From Tieghemostelium lacteum (lineage: Eukaryota > Evosea > Eumycetozoa > Dictyosteliales > Raperosteliaceae), in NCBI GenBank assembly GCA_001606155.1, contig LODT01000039.1:62001-126000 (forward strand): a stretch of 64,000 bases of DNA, read 5' to 3'. This document shows positions 20,967-32,306 of the stretch, piece after piece. The first letter of the stretch is position 1; each line of letters begins with the position of its first letter. Under the pieces are notes generated by a model that had not been told where the DNA came from, ran no database searches, and worked only from the letters and a program-made list of their open reading frames with translations. Made by a program: the position numbers and the translations under genes.

Positions 20967-22691
20967 TTATTTTGGAATTTTGTATAAAGTAGAATAGACA
21001 TGTTGAATATTTTTACTACGCATTATGGATCTAATTTTCATTTGAATAGGTAATTCTAGAGTTATAATGGAAGTATTGGAATTTAATGCTAGGTCTAAAA
21101 TGTTTTCTTCAAAATTGGTGATAGATGATGAAAAATTATCAACTATTTTTAAGTTTTCAACAAAATTGGTGGTTAGAATCTCTTGAAGCATCTCAAAAAA
21201 GTAACCTTTTTGAAAGAGATCAGAAATATAGAGACTTTTGAATTTTCTTTGTGAACCCATCTGTTTCAGGCCATTAGGGTGGAAAGCTTTCTTATTGTTT
21301 AAGATCTCTAATGTGTGCATCTGTGGTGGTGCACTTTGGAGTAGATATTTAATATTTTGAACTGACAAACCAAAGGAATAGAAATGGAGATGTTGTATAC
21401 TACTACTATTACAAATTTCACTTATCAGTTCATTTGTACCTTCTACATCGAATTCCCTTGTCAACTTCAGAACTCTTAATGATTTAGAGGCAATGATAGA
21501 AGGAATCAATAGATTTACCATAGAGGAGCTATCATGTACACACAATGACAAACTAACTAGATTTTGAAGTGGTGTTTTTAGCATTGGACAATAGAGTTTA
21601 TTGGCATTAAGGTACTGTATATCCATTGGAATATGTGAGATATTAAAATTCATAGGGCATTTAAACATTATTAGTGAACTGGAGCTGCTGGATATTGGAT
21701 CTAAAATTTCAGCTCCTCTATTAATTATCCAGTGAAAATTCAAAAGTGTTCGATTCTCCATTATCATCTGACTATAGAATTTAGATGGGCTATTGGTCTT
21801 AAGTTTTGTTATTGATTTGTTATGTACCATTTCTTTTATCAGATCAAAATCCTTTTCGAGAAAATTTTTATGTTTCAAATGAAGAACTTTTAATTTACAC
21901 TCTGGAGATGCAACTAATTTAAATAGTTCATCTGCAAGTTTAGTATTCCCTGGTATTTCAAATTTTAGTATCTCAAGATTCAAACTCGAGAAGATTTTCT
22001 TGTAATCTGTAGAATCATCGACATAATGATTAATTATTTTTAGAGATTTTAGATCTCTAAATACATTTAAATTGAGTAACATTGCCATTGCACCGTGTCT
22101 CCATCTATCACCATACCCAAAATCTATAGATACATTACTATAGTTATTAATTGGATTTTCATCAGTACCGTGAAAAGTTTTTATATTTTCCACACTTAGT
22201 GGATTATCTTCAAAAGGTCTAAGTACTAAACTTTCACAGTTTTCTAAAACTTTTTGGTATCTACCAATACTTATTTTTTTTTCACTTGAATAAGGACTTA
22301 ATACACATAATGTTGATCTATAGATATGAAATTTCACATAATCACAAAGTTCATCTAACTTTTGTGGTGATTCGTAGACTTGATAGATATCACCGCAATG
22401 TATCTCTGGGAATTTTAATCCTCTTTTTACTATCCATAAATGTGCATAGTTTAATGAAAATTGTGATCTGACATTAAATATTGGATAATTTAAACTAACC
22501 AATACCTTTTCATTCCATTCTTTTGATACTAAAAATAACTTATTTAATAGCGCTATTATAAACTCATCTCCATCACTGAAATAAGTTCCGATTTTTGAAC
22601 ATATTTTACTAAATGATTGAAAAAGATAGTTTAATATCTTTTTAACTATTACATGCGGTATTACTAAATTATTATTATTCGTTTCCATCAA
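20967..22691 (-). CDS. F-box-like / leucine-rich-repeat protein
   Basis: Single exon, 574 residues. Starts MMETNNNNLVIPHVIVKKIL with the family's N-terminal helix, then KEWNEKVLVSLNYPIFNVRS, which is shared closely with the next gene (KDWSEKVLVSLDYPPFTIRS). The remainder is LRR-like (LKVLHLKHKNFLEKDFDLI, SIQHLHFYSFGLSVQNIKYLL). It forms a head-to-tail pair with the gene at 22778-24475, 86 bp downstream of that gene's stop. Function is inferred only as a possible ubiquitin-ligase receptor. Confidence 0.8.
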   Translation of the reverse strand: MMETNNNNLVIPHVIVKKILNYLFQSFSKICSKIGTYFSDGDEFIIALLNKLFLVSKEWNEKVLVSLNYPIFNVRSQFSLNYAHLWIVKRGLKFPEIHCGDIYQVYESPQKLDELCDYVKFHIYRSTLCVLSPYSSEKKISIGRYQKVLENCESLVLRPFEDNPLSVENIKTFHGTDENPINNYSNVSIDFGYGDRWRHGAMAMLLNLNVFRDLKSLKIINHYVDDSTDYKKIFSSLNLEILKFEIPGNTKLADELFKLVASPECKLKVLHLKHKNFLEKDFDLIKEMVHNKSITKLKTNSPSKFYSQMIMENRTLLNFHWIINRGAEILDPISSSSSSLIMFKCPMNFNISHIPMDIQYLNANKLYCPMLKTPLQNLVSLSLCVHDSSSMVNLLIPSIIASKSLRVLKLTREFDVEGTNELISEICNSSSIQHLHFYSFGLSVQNIKYLLQSAPPQMHTLEILNNKKAFHPNGLKQMGSQRKFKSLYISDLFQKGYFFEMLQEILTTNFVENLKIVDNFSSSITNFEENILDLALNSNTSIITLELPIQMKIRSIMRSKNIQHVYSTLYKIPK

Positions 22692-22777
22692 TTCAAAAAT
22701 ATGAAAAATAAAATCAATCGATCAATGTCTTTGAAATTGAAAAATATCAGAAAATTTTGTTTTAGTCTATTTTTATT

Positions 22778-24475
22778 TTAATAAATAGCAGAGGAATAAA
22801 TAGGAAGTATTAATTTTTGTTTTAATAAAGAAGTGAAGAGATGGAAACTTGTAAAATTTTGATCGAGACTAATAAGAGAGGTATTAGATGACAAGGATTC
22901 TGTGAGAGAGGTTTCTTGCTTTATATCTGGTTTATCAGTGGTAGTATCTATAAATTTTAGATTCTCTACAAAATTACTCTGAAGTAATTGATTAAAGATT
23001 TCAAATGAGAAACCTGTTTGAAAGAGATCAGAGATGAAGAGATTTTTGAATTTTCTCTGTGAACCTATAAATCTTAGACTTTTAATATGGAAGCTTTGTT
23101 TAAGATCTACAATCTCCAGTGTGTGCATTTGGTCAGGTGCTTTCTGGAATAGATATTTAATGTTTTCCACTGATAGACTTAGTTGATTCAAATGTAGGAT
23201 TTGTATACTCTTACTATTACAAATTTGTGTAATCAGTTCATTGTGTTCTTTAAATTTTTTAATTTCATTCTTTAGTACTAAAACACAGAGTGATTGTGAG
23301 GCATTGATAGAAGGTATTACAAAATTAGATACACTGTTACTTTGTATACTTTCCATTGTCAGTCTTATTAGATTACAAAGTGCAACTGGTTTGTCAGTTA
23401 TTTCAAGACCCATGCTTGTAAGATACTTTATACTTTCAGGAATGTAATGTACATTGAAGGAATTTGGTGTTTTTAATTCAGTTAATGAATTGTTTTGTAT
23501 CTCTAGAGATTCTTCTGAATCCACGTTGATTGTGATTGAGCTCCATAGAATTGTTTTTAAAGTAGAGTTTTCGTTGAGTAACTCAACAAAATGATCACTA
23601 TTTAAGTTAGTTGATAGTTCAGTCACTGATCGGTTTTTGTAAAGTAAAGGAAAGATTTCTAAATCTATATTGTTACTAAATTTATAGTGTAGAGAGAGAA
23701 CTTTAAGAGCGCATTTTGTGTTGACTAATAGGTTTTCTAACTCTATCTCTAATGGAATCCATCTTTCGTTTGTAAAGTTTAGATAGAGATCTTCCAATAC
23801 AGGACTTTGTAGCATATTATGATATTGCATATGATTGGAGTGAAATGTCAATCTGAGTGATCTTAATGATTGGAATGCATTTAGTAACTGTAACTCTACT
23901 AAACATTCTAGACTAGATAGGTAGTCATAGATAATGGTAAGTGCACTCTTATTAGCAAGTGGATTATCTTTGCTTGTATGAAATCTAGCAACATTGAATT
24001 TAGTAACTGACCATGGTTTTTTATCTAACTGAAGTTCTTTAGAGTTATCAAAAATGGAAGGATATCTCCCTACTACTAGTTTTCTATCAATTTTACCTAC
24101 GTGTGTTTTATATCTCTTGATTGGAACTACAGCAGATATCTGATCAAGTAGAAATGGTTTACGATAATCACAATCATATAAATCATGAACATTAATTACA
24201 GAGAATTGTAATTTTCTTTTTACAATCCACAAGTGTGCATATTCTAATGTAGGGTTTGATCTTATAGTAAATGGTGGATAATCTAAAGACACCAATACCT
24301 TTTCACTCCAATCTTTGTTAACCAAAAATAATTTATTTAATAGGAAAATAATCATTTGGTTTCCATGTTGAGTTGTCAAATTCACACACAAACTATTTAA
24401 TGATTGAAAAAGATAGTTTAAAATCTTTTTAACAATTACATGTGGAACAATAGTTATAACTATGTTATTTTCCAT
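22778..24475 (-). CDS. F-box-like / leucine-rich-repeat protein
   Basis: Single exon, 565 residues from the ATG at 24475 (MENNIVITIVPHVIVKKIL). An ATG at 24520 adds 15 residues, but the paralogue starts at the equivalent of 24475. Shared landmarks with the 20967-22691 gene are HLWIVKR, NIKYLFQKAPDQMHTLEIV, FIGSQRKFKNLFISDLFQ and NFVENLKFID, so the two are tandem duplicates that have since diverged. The LRR-like repeats run to the C-terminus. Confidence 0.8.
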   Translation of the reverse strand: MENNIVITIVPHVIVKKILNYLFQSLNSLCVNLTTQHGNQMIIFLLNKLFLVNKDWSEKVLVSLDYPPFTIRSNPTLEYAHLWIVKRKLQFSVINVHDLYDCDYRKPFLLDQISAVVPIKRYKTHVGKIDRKLVVGRYPSIFDNSKELQLDKKPWSVTKFNVARFHTSKDNPLANKSALTIIYDYLSSLECLVELQLLNAFQSLRSLRLTFHSNHMQYHNMLQSPVLEDLYLNFTNERWIPLEIELENLLVNTKCALKVLSLHYKFSNNIDLEIFPLLYKNRSVTELSTNLNSDHFVELLNENSTLKTILWSSITINVDSEESLEIQNNSLTELKTPNSFNVHYIPESIKYLTSMGLEITDKPVALCNLIRLTMESIQSNSVSNFVIPSINASQSLCVLVLKNEIKKFKEHNELITQICNSKSIQILHLNQLSLSVENIKYLFQKAPDQMHTLEIVDLKQSFHIKSLRFIGSQRKFKNLFISDLFQTGFSFEIFNQLLQSNFVENLKFIDTTTDKPDIKQETSLTESLSSNTSLISLDQNFTSFHLFTSLLKQKLILPIYSSAIY

Positions 24476-24803
24476 TTTGTTAAAAAAAAAATCAAATCTG
24501 TAGATATTTATTTGATTCAATAAATTGATTTCTATTCATTTTCCAAACATTAAATTTTAAATAAGAATTTTTTTAAAAAATAATCTTTTCATCACTCATT
24601 GAAGCCTGCAAGTTATTTATGTGTAATTGAAAGCTATTTGTTTTAAACGCTGATTCGAAATTTAGTTGATCGAATTTTTTTTTACATTTTAAATGAATTT
24701 TTTTGTGATTTTTTTAGTTATTCATTTTATTAGATTCATTAATCAGATTAGCATAGATATCAAAAGCAAAACCATTTTAAAACATGATAATAGGATTAAA
24801 GAA

Positions 24804-27677
24804 ATGACATACAATAAAAAGAAATCAAAGAAAATTAATAACCAAAACCAAACATCAAAAGATAAATCTTCATCTTCAAAAGATGAAAATATCAGTAAAA
24901 AGGAGAATACAATTCTAAAGATTTCACCAGAATTATCCAATTTAATTCAACAACAACATAATCAAACCCTAAGTAATAACACATCAGCAACTACAACAAC
25001 AACAACTACTAGTACCAACATTGCAAGTGTAACCAACACTAATAGTTATAATAATACAACTAAAGATAAAATTCAAGAGAGTTCAATTGATACCAAAAAA
25101 AAAGTAAATGAAATACGATCGAGTTACTATGGATCAGCATTATCAAGTTCGACAGCATCCTTAAAATCATCAACATCAAGTTATTCATTGGGTTATGATA
25201 ATAATTCAACAACTAGTACTACAACAAGTGAACAAAATATAAAATCACAAATTACTACTACAAAGTTACAGGATTTCTATTGTTATGGTAATAATAGTAG
25301 TAATAGTATTGTTAATACACCACAAGATGTATATTTAGGTGAGAGAAAAGAGAGTATTAATAATTTTAATAACTTTCTAAATGATCCATTGTATGCTTTG
25401 AATGGTGGAAACGGTCCTATTCAACCATCAGAAGAGCTACTAAATAATGATAAATATGGTTACTCTATTGATTGGAATCAGTATTTTCAAAAACTATTGT
25501 TGTTACCAGAAGACGATTTGGATCAAAAGTTTAAAAAGTATAAAACTCTGTCGAGTCTAAGTAAGGATTTCTTGCATGCTGCAATTACCTATGGAAAGAT
25601 TATCATTGAAGAGGCATTTATAGATACCAAATACAAGACTATAAAGCCTACTTCAGTGGGTGGACAAGCAGGTGGTATAAAGTATGTCTACAATGGAATT
25701 CTCTTTAAATTTGCCCTTGATTGGATTCAAATCTATGGTGGTGACGAGTTTTCAATGAAAGCTGCTGGACATGAACTTAAATCAGTTATGAGATATTGTG
25801 GTTGTGATGGTATACATGTACCTTTGATGGTGGTACTTGATCACAGAGGTTTTCGTCTGGTTGCAATGTCTATTCTTCCAATTACAAAGAAATCTATAGT
25901 TTACGGTTCCAGTGATGGTGGAAAGTCAATTCACGCTTCCAATAGCGAACTCAATGAAAAGATGAAATTGGCAGCCTCAAAGATGAATATAAAAGGTCAT
26001 TTGGCAGGTATTAATCAAGAGAAAGAGTTTATCTATGGTCCTACTGATATTGAAGGACATTTAGGTTGGGATGGTCTCTTTTATGTATTGGACTGTGCTA
26101 GAGTATTTCCACCAACTGTTGATAGAACAATTGACGAATCATTCTTGTATCGTTTGATGAGACCTGAGTTTGTTCAGAATTATCATACACCTCTATCATC
26201 GGATTCCTATACTCCATTTGGAAAAGTAGATTCAAAAATGGAAATTAATAATCAACAGGTACGTGATGCTACTGATTATCTCTTTGGTCAGTGTATTCCA
26301 AAAATGGCAGCATGGATGGAGAATCATGTAGACTCTATTGACTGGTACCAACAGTTGACAGAGATTATTCATCGTGAGGGTATCAATGTCAGATATTTGG
26401 GTTTAATTAGAAATCAAATTCAATCTGAAAAATTAAAATCCATAATTCTCACGGAAATTGTTGCCAGAACTCTAAAGAATCTCATTAGAGAAAATCTCAG
26501 AGAAAAAATGAAATTATTAAAATCAATTGAAGCTGATTCCTATATTCAAGTTATCATTGATTTCTTTAATATCATCTTGGGTGAATCCAAAGATAAACAT
26601 GAAAAACTTTGGTATAAAGATATAAAATCTGAAATTCTCATTAGATTTGATAATTCTTTAACTGCACAAGGTAAAATCAATTTTATTCGATATTATAATA
26701 TTATTAATACTAATTTTATCTATTAATATATTATAGAAAAAGATTCAAAATTCAATTTAAAAAATAATATAAATATTTATTATGTTTTTATTAGAATTCA
26801 AAATATGACTGGTATAAAATTTGGAGAGATATCAATGAAAGAATTAGGTAAAGATCCACAGTCATTTAGAGTTGTTGAAAGTGATATCATTGCAATGGAT
26901 GTCCGTGTAAAACATATGAATATAATCAGTTTAGCTGAAGGTAATGCACTGTCATTACAATGCATGAAATTGGAAGGTAAACCGGGTTCGCAGAGACTCT
27001 TTAAATTGGCTACCAATAAATTTGAGGAAGCTATTCGATCGACACCAGATAACAAGGATATCCTAAATGAATATGCGGATGTTCTCAAGGAATTAGCAGT
27101 ATCAGTTGGTGGTCCTAATAAGGAGGAGACCCTTCTATATCTGGAGAGAAGTTACTCTAATTTCTTTTTGGCCAATAATTACGGACGACTTTTGGCACTT
27201 GGTGACTTGTTAATGTCCCTAGTCCACAATGATGATTTTTGTCATTTGAAATCAGAGATATTGAATCTCTCTGAAAAAGCATTTATGAGTGTTGCCTATT
27301 GGGGCCAAGATATCAGAAAGAATCTATTAAATTCATCATTTGATATCATTTCACGTCGAACATCCTCAACTAGTCATCATTCAACATCAATCTCAGATCA
27401 GTCTAGAGTTATGGCTCTTTTAAAACTTGTTGTCTTACAACAACTAAAATCACAACTCTGTGGTAACACTCTATTAGAATTTGAAAAATGTGGTAAATTA
27501 TTAAAAGAGGCTTTTAAATTAATCTTCAATGATTCTACCCTGTGGTCAATGTTACCAATACCCGAATCACTCTTATCAAAATCAAATATACAATTAGCTA
27601 TCTATTTAAAACTATTTTTACAAATTAATAATAATAATAATAATATTATAGATAGTTGTAATAATATCAATATTGTA

Positions 27678-27762
<85 letters not shown>

Positions 27763-30700
27763 TAGATAATACCAACTCAATGGAAGATATTTTACCATTG
27801 ATATTTAAAAAAGAAAGAGTATTAGAGAGTAATTTCTATAATCTACAAATTGATATGGAATTTTTAGCCTATCTATTAAAGATGGAGAAATTTACAGAAA
27901 TCAACTTCAAGGCATTCCAAGGTTTTAGAATTAGTAAACTAACGATAGGTCATGGAAATACTGTTAGGATATTAAATTTATCATTTTCAGATATTGATGA
28001 CGACACACTTTTGGATCTACTGAAACTACTACCAAATTGCCATTCACTGGATCTATCTAATTGCTATCAATTATCCAGTCAATCACTTTACAATTCATTA
28101 TCAGTACTCACTCATTTATCCAAACTGAAATGTAAATATCTAAAAATTCAAGATCAAGAGATTATTAATCTCTTTAGTCAACAAAATCAACAACAAAACA
28201 GTAAACAAAAAAAGACCAAACCATTGGTATTCCCATCTTTGAAATGTTTGAATCTTTCAAGTACCAATTTGAAATCTATTGGTATATTGATTCAGGCACT
28301 ACCTGGATTACGTCATTTTAATTTCTCCAATTGTCCACTAATTGGTACCTTGGATTTAATTGTAATGATAAATAATTGTAAACCATCAACTCAATTTAAA
28401 AAGATTAACATGTCAGGCTGTTCTGGACTCTCAGATGAATCATTCAGTAAACTCTTGGAATTTGTTAGTTCATCTATAGAGAAACTAAATCTAAATACTT
28501 GTAAGATCTCTAATAGTCCACTTCTCCACTTTAAACCTAAAAGATTACGTTCTTTGGATTTGTCATTTTGTAAAATCAACAAGATTGATTTATTCACTGA
28601 TCAAGTTGGTTTATTATTGAATCTAGTCGAATTAAACCTATCCAATACCAACTTGGAAATTAAAAATCTCTGTCAGATACTTCAGGTTGCAACTAAATTG
28701 GAGATATTATTATTCAATAATAATAATAGTACACCTCAACAACAACAGTATTCACTGAGCACCTCTTCTTCATCTCAATCCAATACAGTACCACCTCACC
28801 AAAACAACTTACTAAACAGACAATTAAAATTGAAAACTCTAGAGATTATCAGTAACAATCTAAATCTTGATATGTTAAAAGAAATTATAACTAGTAGTAA
28901 GGATCTTAAAAATCTCAAAATTAGTAAACAAATAGATATGGATATAGGTCTTATAAAGATACTATGTTCCCTCAATCACTTGGTTCAGTTAGATATCAGC
29001 TTTTGTAAATTTGTAAATGATGATGTATTTGATTACTTTTTACAAAATAGCCAAAGTCTTTCAACACTAGAGGATCTTAATCTCTCTGGATGTCATTTGA
29101 TTACAGATATAACAATTCAAAATATCTCAAAGAAACTACATCATCTAACTAAACTGTCACTTAGAAAATGTCCATTGATTTCAGATCTCCATTCACTGAA
29201 TTCTCATACCATTAGCACACTATTGGAATTGGATTTATCCATTTGTGAGAATCTTCAAGAGTCATCTATCTTCGAAATTGTTAATCTACCATGTCTCAGT
29301 TATCTTAATCTCTATGGATGCAGACGTATAACAGATGAGACATTACGTAATATAGCCGATTCTTCAAATCCCAATCTAAAAACTATTATATTGGGTCTAA
29401 ATAAGACATCCAATCCAGCTATAGAGTTCTTGAAGATTCAAAAACCACAAATTCACTTCATTGTGAATAATAACACCAATGCACTCTCTAGTACCACAAG
29501 TGTTGGAAGTACAACTCCTGGATCGCAATCAAGAGATATCAATACATCCAATGAACTTACCAGTTCTTTTGGTAAAATGTCAATATCAGACTTAACTAGC
29601 TCTACACTTACCACCTCCATAGGTGGTTCATCCAATTCACTCGTTCAATCACCTCCTAGTAGTAATGTACTTACCAATTCATCCCACCTCACCAACAGTA
29701 ATAGCAGTGGTAATTTGAATAATATGATTGGTAGTAGTACACCACAACTAAATGTCTCTGTAGGTATGAACCCACAAGAAATACTACCAATGACAATGAA
29801 ATCTCTGATGGCTGATCTAAAGAACATCAAACAAAATCCATTACCATTAGTATCAGCAGAACCTATTGAAGGAAATCTATTGGTATGGCATTGTAATATC
29901 ATTCCTCCTGTAGAGTCTCCGTATGAAGGAGGTATATTCCATATTGAATTAAAATTCCCTCCATCATATCCAAACAATCCACCATCTGGTGTATTACTGA
30001 CACCATTCCCTCACCCACATATTCATGATGGTGGTAGAATTTGTCTGGATATTCTATCTGATTTCCAGTCCTATTTCCAAGGCCATCAACAGAGTGGATC
30101 AAAAAGTGCTGGTTGGTCATCAGCTTACAGTGTTCAAACTATTCTATTGCAAATTCAGACATTCCTCATTACATTGGATGATGAAGAATCCAGTAATTCA
30201 CCAATTCAAGAGTTTCTATTAAAAATTCCAAAAGCCATAGAATCATCAAAAAGCTTTAAATGTTCGACATGTTCACATGATGCTTCAACCAATAATATAT
30301 GGCCACCTCTAAAAGAACTAAAAGACCTTAAAGATCATAACAAGAATTCCATTCAACCATCAAATAACTCACCCTACAATTCACCAAAACTAACTAGTGA
30401 CCAAGAAAAATCAATAATTAAATTGGACAATAACCAATCAAATAGTAATACCACAAATAATAATAGTAATATTAATAATATTGATCCAAATAACAATAAT
30501 AGTAATAATAATAATCAAAATAATAACCTACTATTAAAGAATATTAATATGGAAAAATTGGAAAACTATATCAATTCCATAGAGAATGAATTGATTTGCT
30601 ATCACACTAGAATATCTTATAAAGAAGATATCTTGGGTGTTGGTATCAGTTTGACATTAAAGAAACAAAAAGTGGAAGAAATTAAGACCACTTTGGATCT

Positions 30701-32306
30701 ATTGTCTATAACTGCATTTAGCCAAGGTGTAAGATCAAGTATTCTAAAAGAACAGTTTACACATTGGATACCATTATATTTGACAACCCAACATGGTGAA
30801 AGAGGTTGGGAACTTTTAGAATCCAGTATCTCTGATGTTTTCAGATCAAAACAATTCAATCCACAATTGGCATGTACTTTCCTATGTAAATCCATGAATA
30901 CCATTATTGTTCAAATAATGAATGGTACAGTACATGCCTCTATTAAACTACTTGAGGGTTATTGCTCATTCCATCAGATGTTCTTGGTGCTCATAAAGAA
31001 ATATCCTCAATTGCTAACAGAGATCAATAAGCAAATCTATGACTTCATTCATATTCCAGAGAAAAGAAATAAGAAATTCACACCAGCACTTGGTGAATTC
31101 TTACCTCTTCTAACAGTCTCTGACTACAAATGGTCTGAAGTCTCTCATTCCTACCTCGACGAAAACTTTGCAAGAAATGTATATTGGCTCACAAAGTCTC
31201 ACCCAGAGTTAGCTGAAACTGAACCTAATCCAATAATTGACAACACCAGAGCACAGTTAACTTTTGATGGAACATTGGTTTCTATTAGACTTTTGATGTT
31301 TCATGTCTATTTCCTTCAAAATGTATCTAGGCCAGATGGAATTAGTATTGATGAAATATCTCAACAATATCTAACACTTTTAGGTAGACCATCACCATCT
31401 GTTAGGGATAATCTCCAAAAAGCTGTTAAAGAAATAATGAAGGTTACAACTTGGAATGAATTCTTTAACAAAATCAATGTACCAGTTGTAGACCCAGATT
31501 CTTTAGTAGTATGGTTGAGAAATTCTGTTGTTTCCTCACTTGATAAAAAGTATCACCTACCACCTAGATCCAAGTTATCTCAAGCCTATAAACAACAACA
31601 AAAGTCATTAGTAAAATCTAATAGTAACGAAACAATTGCAACACCCATTAGTAACAGTCCTAGTACTTCATCAAATAGTCTACAAGTACCATTTTCACCA
31701 ATAATATCAAGATCACCATCACCTAATCGTGCTGGTAATAGTAATAACAACAATATATTAAAATCCAAACAAACACAAACACTACCTCAAACATCCTATG
31801 AAGAATATCTGGACACTCCAATGTTCTTATCACCACCTAACAGTTCAGATAGTATTGATAACTTCCAACAAAAAGTAACTTGGTCCAAATCACCTCCATT
31901 GTATTCAAATGATTCTGTTACAACACACCAATCACCACCAAAATTTGATTACCAATATAACAACAAAGTTTACCCACCACTATCTGCTGCCTCTTCTGAA
32001 TATCGACCACAATATAATTTCAATTATAATTATAACCAACCTTTATCACCACCTCCACAAACTAATACTATCTACAATAATAATAATAATAGTAATAACT
32101 ATAATTATAATGATAATAATAATAATAATAGTAGTAGTCAAGTTATCTGTCCATATTATCCAGTTGGTAAATGTTTTAGAGGCACAAAATGTAAAATGTT
32201 TCATGATTTAAATAGTAATTTTTCTTCATATTATAATAATCGATTATCACCAAATCAAAATAATCAAAATAATCAAAATCAATATTATTATAATAATAGA
32301 AAATAA
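24804..32306 (+). CDS. Giant CLU-like / LRR / ubiquitin-E2 / CCCH fusion protein
   Basis: Two exons, 24804-26670 and 26737-32306, joined over a 66-bp intron; the join is phase-consistent and stop-free and creates YYVFIRIQNMTGIKFGEIS, a CLU-like continuation. About 2,515 residues. Order: disordered N-terminus; CLU-like domain ~285-460 (GGIKYVYNGILFKFALDW, YGPTDIEGHLGWDG, FLYRLMRPEFVQNY); helical segment; poly-N; leucine-rich repeats ~1030-1515 (LEDLNLSGCHLITDITIQ, LSYLNLYGCRRITDETL); E2 domain ~1640-1785 with active cysteine C1725 (GGRICLDIL) but HPH instead of the usual HPN; an E2-associated helical region (ENELICYHTRISYKEDILG); and a C-terminal CCCH finger (CPYYPVGKCFRGTKCKMFH). The E2 domain suggests ubiquitin transfer; CLU and CCCH suggest RNA or mitochondrial mRNA links. 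An ATG at 24693 would add a 37-residue hydrophobic leader that looks spurious. Confidence 0.8.
27683..27762 (+). repeat. (AAT)n microsatellite encoding poly-N
   Basis: A near-perfect AAT run in the asparagine frame of the giant fusion gene, between the helical segment and the leucine-rich repeats. Confidence 0.95.

Follow-up and report, generated by a model that had tools for sequence, protein, structure and literature searches.

A Tieghemostelium lacteum gene joining CLU, LRR, E2 and CCCH modules with a domain resembling the UBR4 ligase module

The gene and its modules

We describe a gene of Tieghemostelium lacteum on the plus strand at 24804-32306 of the 64,000-nucleotide stretch of contig LODT01000039.1 that was analysed (the window). 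Its predicted product, a single chain of 2,478 residues, carries in this order a CLU domain, a CLU-central and TPR-like region, leucine-rich repeats (LRR), a ubiquitin-conjugating enzyme (E2) domain, a conserved domain of about 330 residues that we call CTD, and a CCCH finger (Table 1). CTD is predicted to share the fold of the ubiquitin ligase (E3) module of human UBR4 while lacking most of its zinc site.

Table 1. Features of the gene, with positions in the window
Feature	Position	Strand	Remarks
Exon 1	24804..26670	+	open frame; low-complexity N-terminus, CLU domain, start of eIF3_p135/CLU-central region (Pfam)
Intron, 66 bp	26671..26736	+	GT...AG, phase 1; relatives continuous across it
Exon 2	26737..32306	+	ends with stop codon TAA at 32304-32306
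CLU domain (PF13236)	25470..26120	+	E 4.9e-62, 210 bits
eIF3_p135-like and TPR-like region after CLU, intron included	26343..27629	+	PF12807 in exon 1; homologous to P0001, P0002, P0004
Leucine-rich repeats, F-box/LRR-like type	27984..29459	+	11 core motifs
E2 (UBC) domain, Rad6/UBE2A-like	29793..30281	+
Catalytic cysteine codon, residue 1725, in HPHIHDGGRICLDIL	30042..30044	+
CxxCxH knuckle after E2 (CSTCSH)	30261..30278	+	motif between E2 and CTD in 63/133 E2+CTD proteins
UBR4-type E3 module (hemiRING-like and UZI-like), CTD	30552..31559	+	predicted; most zinc ligands replaced; no Pfam family
CCCH finger C-x7-C-x5-C-x3-H (CPYYPVGKCFRGTKCKMFH)	32148..32204	+	spacing exact; zf-CCCH 14.3 bits, cut-off 24.6

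The initial annotation had fused two open stretches across the intron, and this reading holds: the phases match, the joined exons contain zero inner stops, and the relatives P0001, P0002 and P0004 align over the junction without a break. With a slash at the junction, the window protein reads FDNSLTAQ/EKDSKFNL...YYVFIRIQNMTG, to be compared with FDNSLSIEEREENFDI...YYVFVRIQMMTG in P0001 and FDNSLTIEERDPNFDL...YHIFVRIQNMTG in P0002. The peptide that had been taken for the junction, YYVFIRIQNMTGIKF, sits about 15 residues within exon 2 instead. The A+T content is 0.89 in the intron and 0.69 in the exons. At the other end, the start MTYNKKKSKK at 24804 is similar to MSGYQKKKSP of P0001; there is also an in-frame ATG at 24693, and the sequence upstream of 24804 is spacer-like in composition (A+T 0.80). 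The predicted gene structure rests on the sequence and on these relatives.

If the two halves shared no transcript, there would be a CLU gene at 24804-26726 and an LRR-E2-CTD-CCCH gene from near 26806. On separate halves in other dictyostelids, which the initial annotation had thought worth looking for, one ambiguous record bears: P0147 of Acytostelium subglobosum (746 residues) has the CLU half alone, and may be a truncated gene model. Its similarity to the window protein stops at window residue 619, exon 1 ending at 622, and its final 16 residues are unrelated; blastp gives 55% over 628 columns without composition correction, and no match with the default correction or with -seg no. P0003, a transcript open reading frame (ORF) with LRR-E2-CTD-CCCH and without CLU, can be cited in the same sense, but it begins within the TPR-like region and may be cut short. 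Set against these are sixteen proteins with both halves in a single chain (P0001, P0002, P0004, P0132 and twelve more), the matching intron phase and the conserved residues that flank the junction. Two separate genes are highly improbable.

The four modules named in the initial annotation and their order are borne out, and relatives have the same order. CLU and the E2 (UBC fold; UQ_con, E 2e-28, 99 bits) are clear in Pfam, and eIF3_p135 (PF12807) follows in exon 1 (E 9.3e-13, 49 bits). No match to the CLU_N and TPR families was found in the window protein at E 1 (Pfam); both were found in L001, the canonical CLU copy of this genome. LRR and CCCH remain under the curated cut-offs in the window protein and are backed by shuffles and relatives. 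For LRR, matches of 23.4-25.1 bits (LRR_4) and 20.3 bits (LRR_FBXL18) lie below the cut-off of 27, and the 560 residues contain 11 copies of the core motif, where 1,000 shuffles give 1.86 on average and 7 at most. A CCCH motif downstream of CTD is present in 8 of 136 CTD proteins, the window protein included, where 0.02 are expected with shuffled tails; five of these relatives exceed the curated zf-CCCH cut-off (P0003, P0043, P0076, P0100, P0133), and P0134 is listed with zf-CCCH. The Toxoplasma proteins CGP and PCR10 (PDB 9ya0) match the CLU-central part of exon 1 weakly (E 3e-4 and 0.03).

The catalytic position of the E2 is Cys in 122 of 133 proteins with E2 and CTD, with 5 gaps and 6 other residues. 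This count uses the column of a hidden Markov model (HMM), which we preferred to a catalytic-motif regular expression that detected 101 of the 133 and missed genuine cases. The HPN motif is absent as such, the window protein having HPH, as UBE2W does too; the third position is N in 85 and H in 31 of the 133 by the HMM column, and 46 and 46 of the 101 by the regular expression. P0048, of Planoprotostelium fungivorum, is without the catalytic E2 segment. In the window protein the E2 and CTD are linked by a low-complexity stretch of about 99 residues.

A UBR4-like domain beside the E2

Pfam and NCBIfam returned only chance-level matches to CTD (Rcd1 15.3 bits, cut-off 37.7), and phmmer against PDB gave 0 matches at E 1; a profile built from whole-protein rows has E2s in the 60 matches listed of 321 in PDB, which reflects the use of such rows. 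The main evidence for likeness to UBR4 is the structural match of the predicted fold, with shuffle-controlled hhalign runs as support: P was 0.042 against one UBR4 sequence (probability 1.2%) and 0.0088 against three (4.6%), and the global mode of hhalign found nothing between CTD and UBR4 (0.1%, 11 columns). As modelled, CTD has the overall hemiRING and UZI fold of UBR4 without the zinc site that defines it. The UBR1-type RING-UZI fold did not turn up in the lists, which has no bearing either way.

UBR4 binds a single zinc through C4838, C4841, H4887 and C4890, and cysteine mutants are inactive, according to PMC10873205. Residue pairs between UBR4 and CTD come from a relaxed hhalign run (-mact 0.05) in which individual pairs are unsure. 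By this placing, the equivalent of C4838 is C in 105 of 109 CTDs, with 4 gaps, that of C4841 is T or S in 97, that of H4887 is A in 94 and never H, and that of C4890 is K, N, Q or another residue and never C. Three of the four ligands of the C2HC site are replaced. A placing of H4887 and C4890 on LYLTTQH (no H and one C in the 109) was given up for the hhalign placing on SITAFSQ, and the site is restored by neither. At the position of Asn4884, which belongs to the UBR4 hydrogen-bond network, Ser is nearly invariant in CTD (98 of 109). Because the zinc site is missing, we call CTD hemiRING-like and do not claim membership of the hemiRING class for it.

Could CTD have lost its ligase function together with the zinc site, to become a scaffold or a brake on the E2? 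The protein would then be a large E2 that binds substrates directly through LRR and CLU, much as UBE2O and BIRC6 combine an E2 with parts for substrate binding. The change of C4841, H4887 and C4890 to T/S, A and K/N/Q in the family speaks for this suggestion. A contact is absent as well: the UZI di-glycine of UBR4 touches ubiquitin (PMC10873205), and in the window protein G4979-G4980 aligns to Met-Asn, by an hhalign placing that has low confidence in this loop. However, the equivalents of Cys4838, Gly4854, Arg4896 and Pro4921 are near-invariant in the 109 sequences, and the E2 precedes CTD in 133 of 133 proteins, although the search was seeded with both. Zinc is, moreover, dispensable to U-box domains, which function without it. 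A lost ligase is, in our opinion, unlikely.

In a joint model of E2 and CTD, the fused E2 seems to take up a RING-like docking pose, and we infer that the two cooperate in cis. The initial annotation had spoken of an RNA-linked ubiquitin carrier; its link between ubiquitin and RNA-type domains stands, whereas a carrier only would overlook CTD, which makes the chain resemble an E2 and an E3 combined. Probably the protein works in this way. E1 would charge Cys1725 of the built-in E2, and the hemiRING-like/UZI-like domain, on its flexible linker, would hold the E2 in the RING-bound pose and ease ubiquitin transfer, so that an external RING E3 would not be needed. The LRR solenoid might pick the protein substrate, while CLU and CCCH might bring the enzyme to a messenger ribonucleoprotein (mRNP), a ribosome or a site on the mitochondrial surface.

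Recurrence of the domain order and its partners

In a pool of 239 proteins from three protein searches, scored with HMMs built for this analysis, CLU, E2 and CTD occur in the window's order in 16 proteins besides that of the window (P0001, P0002, P0004, P0048, P0061, P0063, P0064, P0127-P0131, P0132, P0133, P0134 and P0135). P0048 comes from Planoprotostelium fungivorum and P0135 from Pelomyxa schiedti; P0133 and P0134 have a C-terminal CCCH finger as well, and P0004 and P0132 are, by their source names, assembled-transcript ORFs. The initial annotation had supposed the order to be peculiar to these amoebae, which is contradicted by these proteins: judged from the sequences compared, the order is real, and older and wider than these amoebae. 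P0135 is deposited as 'Histidine kinase A', a name at odds with its Pfam matches.

The CTD-type and CLU-type searches scored 7,985 and 7,991 candidates, and 120 of 158 and 120 of 280 matches, respectively, are listed. All 120 listed matches of the former have CTD, and 117 also have E2. By precomputed Pfam their partners are RRM in 17, S1 in 5, CCCH in 2, F-box in 12 (11 with E2), SPRY in 4, vWA in 3 and CLU in 4. Named holders of CTD in the list are Naegleria, Willaertia, Acrasis, Euplotes (Moneuplotes), Paramecium, Acanthamoeba, Arcella, Balamuthia, Planoprotostelium and Symbiodinium; Chromera was present in the first protein search, and no search was aimed specially at animals, fungi or plants. 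Among the matches listed and the 7 of the first protein search there is no E2-CTD protein of D. discoideum, and P0208 of that species has CLU without an E2 or CTD match. The E2-CTD proteins with S1 are P0078, P0092, P0096, P0098 and P0101, and two others, P0084 and P0085, combine ankyrin repeats with RRM. No account of this fusion was found in titles or abstract openings of the relevant literature, full texts lying outside that coverage; the accessible part of a survey of the ubiquitin system (PMC4327156), which describes E2 families with exclusive accessory domains and few links, names no such fusion.

A CTD tree was made from 109 rows by a quick method, with SH-like approximate likelihood ratio (SH-aLRT) support only; 27 of the 136 CTD proteins, P0061 among them, were left out of alignment and tree, their fragments lying outside 250-420 residues. 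The 16 CLU rows, that of the window among them, fall together with six more in a group of 22 rows supported at 84, which is separate from the F-box group. Of the 8 CCCH rows, 7 fall within this CLU group. So far as the tree goes, CCCH seems to belong to the CLU branch from early on; P0001, P0002 and P0004, which are without it, would have lost it or would be truncated gene models. The CLU label requires 6 changes over the whole tree, the cause being the six non-CLU members of the group, some of them partial proteins. Partial proteins also inflate the parsimony changes of CCCH (6), RRM (8) and 'any RNA-binding domain' (16). Since RRM, S1 and CCCH mostly lie in separate parts of the tree, their repeated joining is the simplest reading.

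The tree bears on another suggestion, that the protein is an SCF-type adaptor whose LRR, as in F-box/LRR proteins, delivers the E2 to a cullin complex. The F-box partners counted above, P0049 among them, have F-box and CTD in one chain, and the window LRR matches FBXL18, weakly and below the cut-off. Yet Pfam finds no F-box in the window protein, whose E2-CTD linker is a low-complexity stretch, and F-box and CLU members lie on different sides of the tree. Such an adaptor is very unlikely here. The F-box E2-CTD proteins themselves (P0049, P0047, P0050, P0069 and others) could link Skp1-cullin complexes directly to an E2 and a UBR4-like module.

The 23-Mb genome of T. lacteum has about 19 distinct CLU loci (from 24 matches), a large expansion; four are on one contig (C17), three of them within about 11 kb. 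Among the places listed, one locus has both CLU and E2, and none of the other listed E2 places is within 90 kb of a listed CLU place, both lists being lower bounds. CTD occurs at one place, by a single-sequence search that a distant second copy could escape. A separate UBR4 is present as an open frame of 5,283 residues. Next to the gene, at window 20967-24535 on the minus strand, two neighbouring ORFs of 584 and 585 residues, without Pfam matches at E 0.01, are alike by eye and apparently tandem paralogs.

Possible roles and comparison with known systems

What might such a protein do? One suggestion is that this Rad6-type E2 and its zinc-less UBR4 relative are placed by CLU and CCCH on mRNPs for mitochondrial proteins, where they would mark failed nascent or unimported precursors. 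SIFI, of which UBR4 is a subunit, degrades unimported mitochondrial precursors (PMC10881396). Taken with PMC7196838 and with the CCCH finger, the presence of UBR4 in SIFI makes it attractive, though hypothetical, to think of a role in quality control, either at mRNPs or of mitochondrial precursors as they are made. The E2-CTD pair itself might be an ancient protist device, combined with varying RNA-binding and substrate-binding parts. A second tie points in the same direction: in the CLU-LRR proteins P0156, P0158 and P0160, one of them from Planoprotostelium fungivorum, a UBR box (zf-UBR) separates CLU from LRR. Another CLU-LRR protein, P0137, has an intein-like match (Hom_end_hint) ahead of its CLU match, which begins at profile position 39; an intein may interrupt this CLU domain.

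Two points weigh against the suggestion. The canonical CLU protein of the genome is another one, L001, which has CLU_N and TPR. CLU also occurs with many different partners among the matches listed (120 of 280), for which reason the tie to UBR systems may be promiscuity. We hold it as a tentative idea, on balance somewhat doubtful.

If it is true, the fusion would be a Rosetta stone that ties the CLUH pathway to the UBR4/SIFI pathway. One question becomes open to direct test in animals: do CLUH and UBR4/SIFI share mitochondrial precursors as their targets? The recurring RRM, S1 and CCCH partners, with CLU, suggest ubiquitylation at mRNPs or ribosomes. In 2024 the RING-related architecture of the UBR4 E3 module was reported to be without precedent (PMC10873205); a protist family with this fold beside a Rad6-like E2 in one chain, and with most of the zinc ligands gone, would represent a second route to a working RING-like ligase, and would provide a compact E2-E3 unit for study.

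We know several systems with which the protein can be compared. The hemiRING-UZI module of UBR4 (PDB 8b5w, 8btl; PMC10873205) has its predicted counterpart in CTD, but the window protein has the E2 fused in the same chain, has three of the four zinc ligands replaced, is without the di-glycine contact, and has neither the UBR box nor the rest of the giant UBR4. With CLU/CLUH, represented by L001, it shares CLU and eIF3_p135; it differs in lacking the CLU_N and TPR families and in continuing from CLU into LRR-E2-CTD-CCCH. UBE2O and BIRC6 are E2/E3 hybrids, giant proteins with an E2 and parts that bind their own substrates, and in this they resemble the window protein; to our knowledge a UBR4-type module is absent from both, as are CLU, LRR and CCCH parts. 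The heterolobosean proteins P0008 (Naegleria), P0009 (Willaertia) and P0014 (Acrasis) combine E2, CTD, LRR and an RNA-binding domain as the window protein does, but in them the E2 comes first, LRR follows CTD (P0008), RRM takes the place of CCCH, and CLU is absent. P0048, P0135 and P0133/P0134 have the CLU-LRR-E2-CTD order of the window, with CCCH in P0133/P0134 too, in sequences that have diverged.
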